Source: Thermotoga sp. SG1 (lineage in GTDB: Bacteria; Thermotogota; Thermotogae; Thermotogales; Thermotogaceae). Taken from it: 64,000 bases of DNA. The position numbers and the translations under genes are program-made. The stretch lies in the NCBI RefSeq assembly GCF_002865985.1, contig NZ_LNDD01000003.1:124001-188000 (forward strand), written 5' to 3'. The notes beneath the pieces were generated by a model. The model saw only the letters and a program-made list of their open reading frames with translations, searched no databases and was not told the DNA's origin. Shown one piece after another: positions 18,185 through 22,499 of the stretch; positions within the stretch are counted from its first letter, which is position 1, and every line of letters starts with the position of its first letter.

Positions 18185-18219
18185 AAATCAGGATGAACGA
18201 AGAAAAGGGAGGGATTGTG

Positions 18220-19275
18220 ATGGAAGATCGTGTTTTGCCCATCAAGAAAGGTCTTCCTCCGGGGACGCTCGTTTATACAGGAAAGCACAGAGAAGACTTT
18301 GAGATCGAAGTGATGAGTTACTCCCCTGAGGAATTCAGAGAGTTCAGGACGGCAAACGTTGAAGATGTTCTTTCTTTCAAAGATTCTATGGCAACTACCT
18401 GGATAAACATCGTTGGTGTTCACAGAACAGACGTTGTAGAAAGAATAGGAGAACACTTTGGGATACACCCCCTTGTTCTGGAGGATATCCTCAACGTTAA
18501 CCAGAGACCGAAGATCGAATTCTTCGATGAGTACGTGTTTCTCGTACTGAAAATGATCACCTACGATGAGAATTCCTCCGAACTTATCTCAGAGCAGGTC
18601 AGTCTGATCCTCACGAAAAACTGTGTTCTCACGTTCCAGGAAAAGAAGGGAGACGTATTCGAGCCTGTGAGAGAAAGGATAAGGCACAACAAAGGAGTTA
18701 TAAGAAAGAGAAAATCAGACTATCTTCTTTACTCTCTGGTGGACGCGCTGGTGGACAACTACTTCGTCCTACTGGAGAGGATCGACGACGAGACCGAGAT
18801 ACTGGAAAAAGAAGTTCTGGAAATGTCCGCAGAGGACACAGTCCAGAAAATATATCTGTTGAAGAGAAACCTCATAGAACTGAGGAAGACGATCTGGCCT
18901 TTGAGGGAGATTCTGAACGCAATAACTAAAGGCGAATCTTCTCTCATCAAAGAGGAAACGCTTCCTTATTTCAAAGACGTCTATGATCACACCATCCGGA
19001 TCGCAGACACCGTGGAAACATTCAGGGATATCGTGAGTGGCCTTCTGGACGTGTACCTTTCGAACATGAGCAACAAGACGAACGAGGTGATGAAGGTTCT
19101 CACCATAATAGCAACGATCTTCATGCCCCTCACCTTCATAGCGGGCATCTACGGTATGAACTTCGAGTACATGCCAGAACTCGGGTGGAAATGGGGTTAT
19201 CCAGTGGTTCTCATTGTGATGGGTGTAATAGCGTTCTGGATGGTGGTCTATTTCAAGAAAAAGAAGTGGTTATGA
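18220..19275 (+). CDS. corA: CorA-type magnesium/cobalt channel
   Basis: Pentameric inner-membrane Mg2+ channel. From ATG 18220 the protein is 351 residues, identical in length to the structurally studied T. maritima CorA. It has a large acidic N-terminal cytoplasmic domain, the long stalk helix, then two transmembrane segments near the C-terminus. The signature YGMNF puts G312-M313-N314 at the mouth of the pore, and the tail ends in basic FKKKKWL. I rejected the upstream ATG at 18193 because GGGAGGG lies within that extension, well placed for 18220. Confidence 0.97.
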   Translation: MEDRVLPIKKGLPPGTLVYTGKHREDFEIEVMSYSPEEFREFRTANVEDVLSFKDSMATTWINIVGVHRTDVVERIGEHFGIHPLVLEDILNVNQRPKIEFFDEYVFLVLKMITYDENSSELISEQVSLILTKNCVLTFQEKKGDVFEPVRERIRHNKGVIRKRKSDYLLYSLVDALVDNYFVLLERIDDETEILEKEVLEMSAEDTVQKIYLLKRNLIELRKTIWPLREILNAITKGESSLIKEETLPYFKDVYDHTIRIADTVETFRDIVSGLLDVYLSNMSNKTNEVMKVLTIIATIFMPLTFIAGIYGMNFEYMPELGWKWGYPVVLIVMGVIAFWMVVYFKKKKWL

Positions 19276-19391: not shown

Positions 19392-21305
19392 ATGAAAAGC
19401 AACGGATCTTCCCAGAAAAAGAACCAGAAAAGATTCAGAAAATTCCTTGGACCCGTCACCAACCTGGAAGAACATGTGGAACCTGACTGGTGGAGTCGCA
19501 TCTTCAACTCGCTTTATCTGAAAACGGACGCGGACGTTGTGGACGATATCAGCATCACCAGAGAGGAAGTGGATCTGTTCTCACACATCCTGAAACTCTC
19601 CCTTGAGGATCACATCCTCGATCTCTGTTGTGGTCATGGGAGACACTCTCTGGAACTTGCAAGGAGGGGTTTTCAGAAGGTCGAAGGGCTCGATCGATCT
19701 CACTATCTGATCCAGAAAGCGAAGGCTCAGGCAAAGAAAGAAGGTCTAAACGTTAAATTCAGGGAGGGAGATGCCAGAAAACTGCCCTATCCTCCAGACA
19801 CTTTCGATGTAGTGCTCATTCTCGGAAACAGTTTTGGCTACTTTGAAAGTGTAGAAGATGATCTGAAGGTTCTCAAGGAAGTCTTCAGAGTCCTGAAACC
19901 ATGGGGAAGGATTCTCATTGACGTGGCAAACGGAGAGTACCTGAAAAACAACTTCCAGCCAAGATCCTGGGAGTGGATCGACAGAAAACACTTTGTCTGT
20001 AGGGAGCGTTCTCTTTCGGTTGATGGAAAAAGACTCATCTCACGCGAAGTGGTTGTGAACGCTGAAAAGGGTGTCATAGCGGATCAATTCTATGCAGAGC
20101 GGCTCTACACACCTGAGGAATTGGAGAATCTTCTGAAAGCGGCGGGATTCAGTGATGTGAAGTTCCATGGGGAACTCTCTCCATCCTCACAGAGAAATCA
20201 AGATCTTGGAATGATGGAAAGAAGACTCATAGTAACTGCCGTCGCAAAGAAAGAATGGACTCCTATCAAAAAGAAATCTGAGAAGGCCACAAAAAATGTT
20301 GTGGTCGTTCTTGGAGATCTGAGGAAACCAGATCCTCTGAAACCGAATTCGGTTTTCGATGAAGACGATATCTACACCATCGATCAGATGAAGGCGGCCT
20401 TGAAGAGTCTGAAAGGTTACCATTTCTCCTATCTGGACAACCATGACACACTAATCGCTGACCTCATGAAACTCAGAGGAAAGATAGACTACGTTTTCAA
20501 CCTGTGCGATGAAGGATTCAACAACGATCCCAGGAAAGAGGCACACATTCCTGCGTTGCTGGAGATGCTGGGAATTCCTTACACGGGTTCGGGACCTCAA
20601 ACACTCATCCTGTGTTATGATAAGTCCCTCATCAGGGGAATCGCACGGGAAATGGGGATTCCCGTTCCAAGAGGTGTTTTCATAAAGCCAGAAGACACTT
20701 CTTTCGAAATACCATTTCCCTTCCCTGCCATCGTTAAACCTAACTTTGGAGACTCCAGTTTCGGAATCACTCAAAGAAGCGTTGTTCACTCTCCTGAAGA
20801 ATTGATAAATGTTGTTTCGGAGATAAGAAGCAGATTCGGATATGACAAACCGATCCTGATAGAGGAATTCCTGACGGGGAAGGATCTGAGTGTGGGCATC
20901 ATAGGAAACCCACCCGAATCCTACGTCGTACTTCCCATAATAGAAGAGGACTATTCTGCACTTCCTCCAGAACTTCCAAGAATATGTGGGTACGAGGCAA
21001 AATGGTTGCCCGATTCTCCATACTGGAACATAAGGTCTGTCCCAGCACAACTTCCTGAGGAAACCGAAAAATTCATCATCGATTGCTGTTTGAAACTTTT
21101 TGAAAGGCTGGAGATCAGAGATTACTGCAGGTTCGATTGGAGGTTGGATGCTGAGGGAAATCCCAAACTTCTCGAGGTGAATCCAAATCCCGGATGGTGC
21201 TGGGATGGTCATCTTGCAAAGATGGCAAAGATAGCGGGAATGTCCTACGCAGAAATGCTGGAAGCGATACTCAAAGCGGCGGAGGAGAGGTTGAACATCA
21301 GGTAA
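19392..21305 (+). CDS. Fusion of SAM methyltransferase and D-Ala-D-Ala ligase-like ATP-grasp enzyme
   Basis: A 637-residue two-domain protein. Residues about 60-285 form a class I methyltransferase with motif I LDLCCGHGRHS (76-86) and D101 for the ribose, and FDVVLILGNSFGY as motif IV. Residues about 305-637 form an ATP-grasp ligase resembling D-alanine-D-alanine ligase: VFNLCDEGFNNDPRKEAHIP, VKPNFGDSSFGIT and the Mg-binding RFDWRLD...KLLEVNPNPGW (about 579-602). The pair suggests amide or peptide-bond formation plus methylation on one small molecule, but the product is unknown. It is not the cell-wall Ddl, which lacks the methyltransferase. AGAGGGGG precedes the ATG; the gene is alone between corA and a convergent gene. 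Confidence 0.8.
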   Translation: MKSNGSSQKKNQKRFRKFLGPVTNLEEHVEPDWWSRIFNSLYLKTDADVVDDISITREEVDLFSHILKLSLEDHILDLCCGHGRHSLELARRGFQKVEGLDRSHYLIQKAKAQAKKEGLNVKFREGDARKLPYPPDTFDVVLILGNSFGYFESVEDDLKVLKEVFRVLKPWGRILIDVANGEYLKNNFQPRSWEWIDRKHFVCRERSLSVDGKRLISREVVVNAEKGVIADQFYAERLYTPEELENLLKAAGFSDVKFHGELSPSSQRNQDLGMMERRLIVTAVAKKEWTPIKKKSEKATKNVVVVLGDLRKPDPLKPNSVFDEDDIYTIDQMKAALKSLKGYHFSYLDNHDTLIADLMKLRGKIDYVFNLCDEGFNNDPRKEAHIPALLEMLGIPYTGSGPQTLILCYDKSLIRGIAREMGIPVPRGVFIKPEDTSFEIPFPFPAIVKPNFGDSSFGITQRSVVHSPEELINVVSEIRSRFGYDKPILIEEFLTGKDLSVGIIGNPPESYVVLPIIEEDYSALPPELPRICGYEAKWLPDSPYWNIRSVPAQLPEETEKFIIDCCLKLFERLEIRDYCRFDWRLDAEGNPKLLEVNPNPGWCWDGHLAKMAKIAGMSYAEMLEAILKAAEERLNIR

Positions 21306-21310
21306 AGCAC

Positions 21311-21333
21311 GGGGGCCTGACCCCCTTTCAATG
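21311..21333. terminator. Weak hairpin between convergent genes
   Basis: GGGGG and CCCCC flank a CCTGA loop (21311-21325), followed on the plus side by TTTCAATGTTTTT. The stem is only five G-C pairs. It lies in the 22-base gap between the ligase fusion and the DedA-type gene. Confidence 0.4.
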
Positions 21334-21861
21334 TTTTTCAATGAACTTTCTCATCTTCCTCTTCCAGATTAAGTAGACAATCATCACCACTGCAAAAAGA
21401 ACGATTCCCAGAATTTTTGAAAACTCCAGAAAGACTCTGCCAGCCGTCAGTGTGGTGAAGAAGAACACACTTTCGTATATTAGATCTCCGGTCCATATCA
21501 CGGGAAGCGTTCTAAGTGGTCTTTCCATGTATCCTGCAAGAAACGGTGTGGCCTTTCCCACCCACGGAACGAACTTGCAGAACAAAATCAGGATCTTTTC
21601 CGAAGAGATGTAAACGTTCGAAAACTCCCTGAGGATTTTCTGAAAAACCTTCCAGTTGAGTCTGGAAAAGAGAGGTTTCAACATCTTTCCCGCAAAGAAG
21701 GTGAGAGAATCCCAGCTCAAAAGTCCCAGGTATATCTCAAAGAAAGCCAGACCTGTCTGCATCCTTCCTGCAGAAATCAATGTGGACGCTGCTAGAATAG
21801 GAAGGGGTGTTCCAGAGTTGTCGAAAAGAAACGTTGTCAGAAAGAGTAACAGATACTTCAA
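21328..21861 (-). CDS. DedA / VTT-domain membrane protein
   Basis: A 177-residue integral membrane protein with about four to five hydrophobic segments. It looks like the DedA (SNARE-associated, VTT) family: an N-terminal re-entrant-like region (LLLFLTTFLFDNSGTPLPIL) followed later by FCKFVPWVGKATPFLAGYM, which corresponds to the conserved F.R..P..R....AG motif of DedA proteins. Some DedA proteins flip undecaprenyl phosphate or phosphatidylethanolamine; which lipid applies here is unknown. The start is TTG with GAGGGAG upstream. It is divergent from the next operon. Confidence 0.65.
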   Translation of the reverse strand: MKYLLLFLTTFLFDNSGTPLPILAASTLISAGRMQTGLAFFEIYLGLLSWDSLTFFAGKMLKPLFSRLNWKVFQKILREFSNVYISSEKILILFCKFVPWVGKATPFLAGYMERPLRTLPVIWTGDLIYESVFFFTTLTAGRVFLEFSKILGIVLFAVVMIVYLIWKRKMRKFIEKH

Positions 21862-21883
21862 GTTTTCTCACTCCCTCTGAGAA

Positions 21884-21890
21884 TATAATA
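21884..21890. promoter_or_regulatory. Overlapping divergent -10 boxes
   Basis: The sequence TATAATA gives TATAAT on the plus strand (21884-21889) and TATTAT on the minus strand (21885-21890). It lies 23 bases from the DedA start on one side and only seven bases from GGAGGTGA on the other, so the plus-strand transcript would begin almost at its ribosome-binding site. No clear -35 on either strand. Confidence 0.5.
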
Positions 21891-21911
21891 GCGCACGGAG
21901 GTGACGGGGAA

Positions 21912-22499
21912 ATAATCGATACGGTCGAGAAAACCGGTGAAAGGGTTCTGAACAAAATATTGATACTTTCTCTGGGAATTCCTGTCGTTTTTTCTCTGAT
22001 CCGTGCCAAAATCGTTGAGACGGTGGGTTATTTCATATTCTGGCTGGGAGGTTTTTCTCCGTACGTGTATGAAAAGGTTGTGCACCAAGAAGTGCCTGAA
22101 AAGACAAAACTGATGCTCTCTTCGTCCATATTTCTTCACTCCGTTCTGGGGCAGTTCATGAACTTCTACGGGAAAATTCCTTTCTGGGACAAGTGCCTTC
22201 ATTTCTATGGATCTTTCGTTGTCACGTACTTTTTCTATCAAATTCTGACAAGAAAGTCCAGGTACTGGGACGAGGTTCCAGGAGCGATACTGATGGCCTT
22301 TCTTCTTAGTACCCTCTCTGGCCTTCTCTGGGAGATCGCTGAATTTGTCACAGACAAGGTGGTTCCGGGGTACAACACTCAAAAGGGTCTGGACGACACG
22401 ATGCTGGATCTCATCTTCGACCTTCTTGGAAGTTATGTGATGGCCAAAATCCTCTACAAAAAGAAGACAGGGCACGTGTTCTGGAGACCGCGTCCATGA
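21912..22499 (+). CDS. DUF2238/YjdF-like membrane protein, probable non-canonical start
   Basis: A membrane protein of about 195 residues with four or so hydrophobic segments. The pattern WDKCLHFYGSF, then GLLWEIAEF, then GLDDTMLDLIFDLLG matches what I recall of the DUF2238 (YjdF) family, whose function is unknown. The start is unusual. GGAGGTGA (21897-21904) is perfectly placed for ATA at 21912 (or ATC 21915), and there is no ATG, GTG or TTG in frame near it. The next ordinary start is TTG 21960, which lacks a ribosome-binding site. It is the first gene of an operon and overlaps the MFS gene by ATGA. Confidence 0.6.
   Translation: MIDTVEKTGERVLNKILILSLGIPVVFSLIRAKIVETVGYFIFWLGGFSPYVYEKVVHQEVPEKTKLMLSSSIFLHSVLGQFMNFYGKIPFWDKCLHFYGSFVVTYFFYQILTRKSRYWDEVPGAILMAFLLSTLSGLLWEIAEFVTDKVVPGYNTQKGLDDTMLDLIFDLLGSYVMAKILYKKKTGHVFWRPRP

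Follow-up and report, generated by a model that had tools for sequence, protein, structure and literature searches.

The window, by which we mean the whole stretch of 64,000 nucleotides analyzed here, encodes a protein in which a methyltransferase is joined to an ATP-grasp domain resembling D-Ala-D-Ala ligase (Ddl), and its sequence indicates that it is very probably bifunctional, a ligase and a methyltransferase in one chain. Since some of its nearest relatives lie beside polyamine-making genes, the fusion probably makes a methylated amide, the product class that an earlier, sequence-only reading of this DNA had suggested and that our results support. We give a rough probability of 0.45 to the view that it is a self-contained small-molecule synthase whose product would be an amide with an N-methyl group, perhaps derived from a polyamine; both substrate and product are ones that we infer. 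The gene, its parts and the adjoining features are as follows.

18193..19275, + strand: gene for a CorA magnesium transporter, 116 bp before the start of the fusion (Pfam, comparison with genome G091).
19392..21305, + strand: methyltransferase/ATP-grasp fusion gene, ATG start, 637 amino acids (ORF list, Pfam, relatives).
19437..20261, + strand: methyltransferase half, residues 16-290 (Methyltransf_25, alignment A4, model, 3d2l).
19488..19538, + strand: N-terminal family-specific motif, residues 33-49 (alignment A4).
19614..19646, + strand: residues 75-85, which we take to be SAM-binding motif I; D77, G81 and G83 are invariant in the alignments.
19824..19844, + strand: GNSFGYF, residues 145-151, presumably near the SAM and substrate site; N146, S147 and G149 are invariant in the alignments.
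20262..20285, + strand: linker, residues 291-298, a low-confidence stretch in the AlphaFold model.
20286..21302, + strand: ATP-grasp half with the entire Ddl fold, residues 299-637 (structure matches).
20736..20765, + strand: KPNFGDSSFG, residues 449-458, presumably the lysine for ATP and the serine loop (alignment).
20991..21005, + strand: YEAKW, residues 534-538, with W538 (alignment).
21126..21143, + strand: CRFDWR, residues 579-584, with R580 and D582 as in Ddl (alignment).
21168..21212, + strand: LLEVNPNPGWCWDGH, residues 593-607, with E595 and N597 retained (alignment).
21311..21327, + strand: terminator-like hairpin directly after the fusion stop codon, by pattern only; the hairpin scan gave no more hits than shuffled sequence did.

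The sequence-only reading had placed both domains in one protein, and this was borne out by the exact open reading frame and by Pfam matches above the cut-offs for each (Methyltransf_25 at residues 75-172, E 3e-23; Dala_Dala_lig_C at residues 441-627, E 2e-26). A Shine-Dalgarno-like G-rich stretch lies upstream of the ATG. Two further species of this genus have the same architecture (89 and 90% identity), as do 80 loci of the genome collection, which rules out an artefact of assembly. Where the gene is intact, purifying selection on each half is strong: NG86 estimates for the window gene against L008 and against L009 gave dN of 0.054 and 0.055 with a saturated dS of about 2, and L008 against L009 gave dN 0.022 with dS 0.52. 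AlphaFold built two well-formed domains for the whole protein (pLDDT 86.5) at a pTM of 0.57, which makes their relative placement unreliable, while the methyltransferase half alone reached pLDDT 90.5 and pTM 0.87. Both cores had been described as intact, and this agrees with the core residues conserved in relatives; a check of sequence and models for lost SAM- or ATP-binding residues found them retained. Rfam at gathering scores returned one tRNA and nothing else in the 64-kb window. Downstream of the fusion, 21328-21861 (- strand) and 21807-22499 (+ strand) encode proteins of membrane-bound appearance with no Pfam family above cut-off, both of which are present in the fusion-less genome G091.

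At least 576 of 589 pattern matches in the genome collection encode relatives. The best 80 of these are all full-length or nearly full-length fusions, 68-79% identical and from both bacteria and archaea; being the top matches to a fused query, they are uninformative on the frequency of fusion among weaker relatives. Pairwise identity among 85 fusions has a minimum of 59% and a median of 67%, and identity to the window's fusion drops to near 51% in more remote members from archaea and planctomycetes. Full fusions occur in 5 of 103 genomes of the window's phylum, its own included (13 others have an ATP-grasp match at E 1e-40 without the fusion), and in 8 of 297 genomes of the Desulfonema phylum. 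Matches at E 1e-60 were found in 31 of 50 genomes from the phylum of an Atribacteria holder, 6 of 246 from that of a planctomycete, 20 of 200 from that of two archaeal holders (in one of which the halves are split) and 1 of 251 from that of a Dehalococcoidia holder, and two further phyla gave 3 of 132 at E 1e-100 and 2 of 17 at E 1e-60; each sampled phylum was centred on a holder, so that these counts are inflated by at least one. In a quick tree of 81 fusions the archaeal rows are mixed with the bacterial ones (5 changes among 14 archaeal and 62 bacterial labels; 25 phylum changes against a least possible 19). Repeated transfer would give such a pattern, but some of the titles reflect misbinning. 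The fusions of L030 (Methanophagales) and L034 (Nitrosotalea), for example, are near-identical, so one of the two is probably misbinned.

Among seven genomes of the window's genus, three carry an intact fusion. G092 retains only a C-terminal remnant, from about codon 456, and the fusion is absent from G091, where the next conserved gene begins within about 60 bases of corA; the gene is thus dispensable. In G095 corA is followed by another gene, and G096 has no corA match. The sequence-only reading had proposed a search for the two halves as separate neighbors, and they were found in one genome, G823 of an archaeal phylum, with the methyltransferase first; the homologous parts lie 23 bases apart and the longest ORFs of the two halves overlap by 14 bases. 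L129 is a lone methyltransferase, 55% identical; the tree places it within the fusions, and its surroundings show no leftover of an ATP-grasp. Apart from these two cases, the candidates scored included no unfused ATP-grasp above about 42% and no unfused methyltransferase above about 44% identity; only some candidates per genome were scored in the phylum scans, which makes the numbers of unfused halves minimum values. An unfused ATP-grasp matched in 35 genomes of the Desulfonema phylum, and the locus was examined in 26 of these, plus a few more. A mobile-element origin was rejected: phage records held no relatives, none was confirmed in IMG/VR contigs, and plasmids gave a single ATP-grasp-only match at 35%.

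We also rejected a conserved operon, as no neighbor family occurs in more than 9 of the 123 distinct fusion loci when five genes on either side are counted. This count used 187 loci, 184 of them with a fusion match, and ORFs of at least 70 amino acids; flanking sequence of 1 kb or more is available upstream at 105 of the distinct loci and downstream at 112. Fifty-four selected neighbors, mostly close and on the same strand, gave 64 Pfam families, each in three members at most. Neighboring genes were picked as longest ORFs, a procedure that missed the DHS-like gene of L048, which was found on the DNA; queries for polyamine genes, KamA, CorA and MgtE were searched on the DNA of the fusion loci. 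A gene for CorA (11) or MgtE (2) lies on the same strand within two genes of the fusion at 13 of 123 loci, directly upstream in 11 of the 13. These represent about four lineages (the window's genus 3, Atribacterota 6, Aminicenantes 2, other, mutually related bacteria 2), and corA occupies the same site in G091 without the fusion. We regard this post hoc pattern as a weak hint of a link with magnesium, or as chance.

The evidence for a polyamine or diamino-acid link comes from the ligase relatives. In a quick tree of 80 ATP-grasps, the 13 fusion ATP-grasps form one clade (support 100), which is sister to the second ligases of gene pairs (98 for the union); this grouping is provisional because branches are long and nearly all relatives belong to a single phylum. 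We sampled 32 ligase loci, representing 31 places as L198 repeats L288, and all but L188 are from the Desulfonema phylum. Genes for a pyruvoyl arginine decarboxylase (PvlArgDC), agmatinase or a DHS-like protein accompany the ligase at 11 of the 32 loci, a KamA-like gene accompanies it at 14, and 7, some of them on cut contigs, have neither; these ligase loci are nearly all of one phylum and not independent. Pfam agrees with these family assignments on the examples compared. In L141 the genes for the DHS-like protein, agmatinase, decarboxylase and two ligases share four bases at each junction, an arrangement typical of a tightly packed operon. DHS homologues of such type are described as homospermidine synthase, SpeY, in PMC10407285 and PMC9992855.

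Individual loci vary in content. Nine loci of Desulfobacterota (L141, L142, L144, L275 and L278-L282) hold two or three of the genes for DHS-like SpeY, agmatinase and pyruvoyl arginine decarboxylase together with two Ddl-like ligases, often with a GNAT gene and a methyltransferase; L279, on a short contig, has the decarboxylase alone of those three. A lysine-2,3-aminomutase-like gene with one or two such ligases is found in L188, L198 (= L288), L200, L201, L273, L283-L290 and L292. In the window's phylum, L189, L190 and L191 have a single Ddl-like ligase near octopine-dehydrogenase-like and B12-binding genes (Pfam for L191 only). The 24479-residue frame around the ATP-grasp match of G139:C6 (L197) enters masked N and is no evidence of a giant gene.

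One fusion is itself found in such a setting. In L048 (candidate division Zixibacteria by title) PvlArgDC, a DHS-like gene and agmatinase precede the fusion on one strand, and they match the Desulfobacterota operon genes at 59-63% (9 rows), 57-59% (4 rows, with 23-28% in 2 more) and 45-56% (8 rows) identity, respectively. This is the only case among the 123 distinct fusion loci, with none in 7 further, partly overlapping sequences and none in the window, and we read it as suggestive at most because about 0.1 such adjacency would be expected by chance (a rough estimate). The sequence-only reading had found no biosynthetic neighbors to explain the combination; this holds for the window and nearly all relatives, but not for L048, nor for the many nearest unfused ATP-grasp relatives that lie in polyamine or lysine-aminomutase clusters.

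Methylation accompanies ligation in several of these clusters. Unfused methyltransferases of two other subfamilies lie next to or shortly after the second ligase at 10 of the 32 loci (L142-L144 and L276-L282); they are not orthologues of the fused one. The nearest unfused relatives of the fused methyltransferase, from Desulfobacterota (39-43% identity), have a DUF885 gene and an ATP-grasp-like one as neighbors in 7 of 10 loci examined (L130, L132, L133, L134, L136, L137 and L138). The ATP-grasp-like neighbor in these seven is about 460 residues long and has no Pfam family above cut-off, its weak matches being to YheC/D (E 9e-4, under cut-off) and to a glutathionylspermidine-synthase-like chain (E 0.002). 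The pairing of different methyltransferases with amide ligases suggests that both reactions, methylation and ligation, may contribute to a single product.

Our computations show both folds with their cores, a conserved fusion and its kinship with polyamine- and aminomutase-linked ligases; beyond these we infer an order of steps, the substrates and a role for the product. Enzymes of the ATP-grasp fold form an acyl phosphate from a carboxylate and ATP, and the ATP-grasp half would do so with an amino-acid-like substrate. An amine would then attack the acyl phosphate to give an amide, and the methyltransferase half would use SAM to methylate a nitrogen. The likeliest amine would be a polyamine or a precursor (putrescine, agmatine, homospermidine) or a related diamino acid. 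We put the link with polyamines or diamino acids at somewhat under even odds, given the single polyamine locus described above, ligase-operon methyltransferases that are not orthologous to the fused one, C- and O-methyltransferases among the structural neighbors, a gene that the genus can do without, and a sister grouping drawn from a quick tree in which branches are long and phyla few. A bolder version, for which the odds are long, is that the product is an N-methylated aminoacyl-polyamine, a metabolite so far unrecognised and possibly cysteinyl (that is, a trypanothione-like thiol), made by a single gene that has spread through archaea and bacteria, of which many come from anoxic habitats; such a product would need no dedicated operon, so that the fusion could have moved as a single gene between the two domains.

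The methyltransferase half has a Rossmann-like class I fold with SAM motif I, as seen by Pfam, alignment and model, and its model superimposes on 3d2l with Z 24.9 and rmsd 2.5 over 226 aligned residues. Residues W33, W34, F38, Y42, T45 and D46 are invariant across the 52 sequences of alignment A4 (45 fusions and 7 unfused rows); alignment A2 holds 64 of the 81 representative fusions. The structural neighbors include CypM, YunM, TylM1, DesVI, GSMT and GNMT, which act on amines by their titles or known function. Many of the structure and sequence neighbors are amine N-methyltransferases (NmbA, CypM, YunM, TylM1, GSMT, GNMT); C- and O-methyltransferases also occur among the structural neighbors, and several top entries are of uncharacterised function. 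This half resembles small-molecule N-methyltransferases and would methylate nitrogen rather than carbon or oxygen.

The presence of GSMT, which makes betaine by N-methylation, among these neighbors (5h02, Z 22.1, rmsd 3.7, 233 aligned) brings up a compatible solute, an N-methylated dipeptide or amide without polyamine. The fusion would then be the methylated counterpart of NAGGN synthetase, an osmolyte enzyme in which an acetyltransferase is fused to an ATP-grasp. KamA-like and GNAT genes, which serve acetyl-beta-lysine synthesis, also lie beside some related ligases. The NCBIfam GSMT model NF051855 also hits the fusion, at 55.1 of the required 350 bits. On the other side, no osmotic gene was recognised in the neighbor clusters of the fusion, most of which are unannotated, and record titles trace some holders to groundwater or lakes. 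We consider this alternative unlikely, though with an appreciable chance of being right.

A second alternative is an N-methylated low-molecular-weight thiol, for which the ATP-grasp half would join cysteine to an amine or amino acid in a glutathione-type reaction. The best PDB sequence match of the methyltransferase half is 9RI2 (E 1e-27, query residues 55-281), which is NmbA, described in PMC12719100 as the N-methyltransferase of the cysteine of bacillithiol. The two superimpose with Z 22.4 and rmsd 3.3, and the identity of 27% over 204 aligned residues lies below the 35% or more used there for the NmbA network (PMC12719100). In the two structural-neighbor lists NmbA comes no higher than 12th and 28th, so the sequence match may mirror a general family likeness, and no thiol gene was recognised in the mostly unannotated neighbor clusters. 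We find a thiol product doubtful.

CypM and YunM, both peptide N-methyltransferases, and a daptide methyltransferase model that hits at 53 of the required 175 bits point to a protein or peptide modifier in which the ligase would add an amino acid and the methyltransferase would methylate the new terminus. This is improbable: no family of neighboring ORFs of at least 70 residues exceeds the 9 of 123 loci given above, a size limit that leaves room for a small precursor peptide, and the ATP-grasp relatives often lie beside small-molecule enzymes.

Turning to the ATP-grasp half, its model covers the complete Ddl fold (Foldseek 3r5x, E 3.8e-21), and aligns with 1ehi at Z 29.6 and rmsd 3.1 over 309 residues (VIA-align) and with 8evy at Z 29.5 and rmsd 2.6 over 294 (structural alignment). 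The catalytic core of D-Ala-D-Ala ligase (two Lys, Ser loop, Arg, Asp, Glu, Asn) is present: K411, K449, R580, D582, E595 and N597 occur in all 13 compared fusions and S456 in 12 of 13 (rows L194 and L199 were dropped from this motif count). W602, W604, D605 and G606 are likewise found in 13 of 13, and at column 606 both Ddl rows have the serine that presumably holds the second D-Ala. The alignment revealed no N-terminal signature of the GGxSxERE type, which we take to hold the first D-Ala in Ddl, whereas the Ddl-like gene L002 of the same genome has GGTSREREISL. The curated Ddl models give the fusion about half of their cut-offs (132 of 243 bits for NF002378, 123 of 245.65 for TIGR01205). Several residues align it instead with the other Ddl-like ligases, and none of these is present in the two Ddl rows: D577 and R584 are common to nearly all that were compared, W538 to the PA1, PA2 and KamA2 rows, and N599 to the PA2 and KamA2 rows. 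With both the signature and the second-substrate serine missing and the scores so low, we rejected D-Ala-D-Ala ligase identity; judged by its sequence, the fusion is not such an enzyme. The cell-wall variant that the earlier reading had offered, a D-Ala-D-X ligase with an attached methyltransferase, has the Ddl fold in its favor and is largely refuted by the archaeal holders, the missing D-alanine-handling residues, the Ddl scores far below cut-off and the separate Ddl-like gene L002.

Taken together, bacterial and archaeal holders share the fusion at about 51-90% identity, although its distribution is patchy and no operon is conserved around it. Such a pattern is unusual and points to a metabolite conferred by a single gene. 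Both folds are already known; what is new is a stable combination that we found named nowhere. A literature search whose scope left out most subscription journals returned no description of the fusion, and the accessible parts of PMC11237513, PMC9992855 and PMC10407285 do not mention it. If the polyamine link is true, methylated polyamine amides would join the small molecules of these organisms, and the link would help to explain the amide ligases of polyamine and lysine-aminomutase clusters, which profiles liken only to D-Ala-D-Ala ligase. That label is misleading for such proteins, above all in archaea.

The fusion can be set beside five known kinds of protein. It shares with Ddl/Van the full ATP-grasp fold, the core residues and the serine loop; the fusion differs in lacking a signature of the GGxSxERE type, in having G606 in WCWDGH in place of the second-substrate serine, in the additional residues W538 and R584, and in its fused methyltransferase. 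The often paired Ddl-like ligases of the SpeY-agmatinase-PvlArgDC and KamA clusters are its sister clade and have D577 and R584 in nearly all members, whereas they are 34-42% identical, are encoded by separate genes and have other methyltransferases or none. NmbA (9RI2) has the class I fold and is the closest solved sequence to the methyltransferase half, and differs in being a stand-alone protein of 266 residues. GSMT resembles this half in fold and by a weak profile match, with the fusion far under the GSMT cut-off, and has no fused ligase. NAGGN synthetase, likened by description only, also joins a group-transfer domain to an ATP-grasp amide ligase, the group transferred being acetyl rather than methyl.
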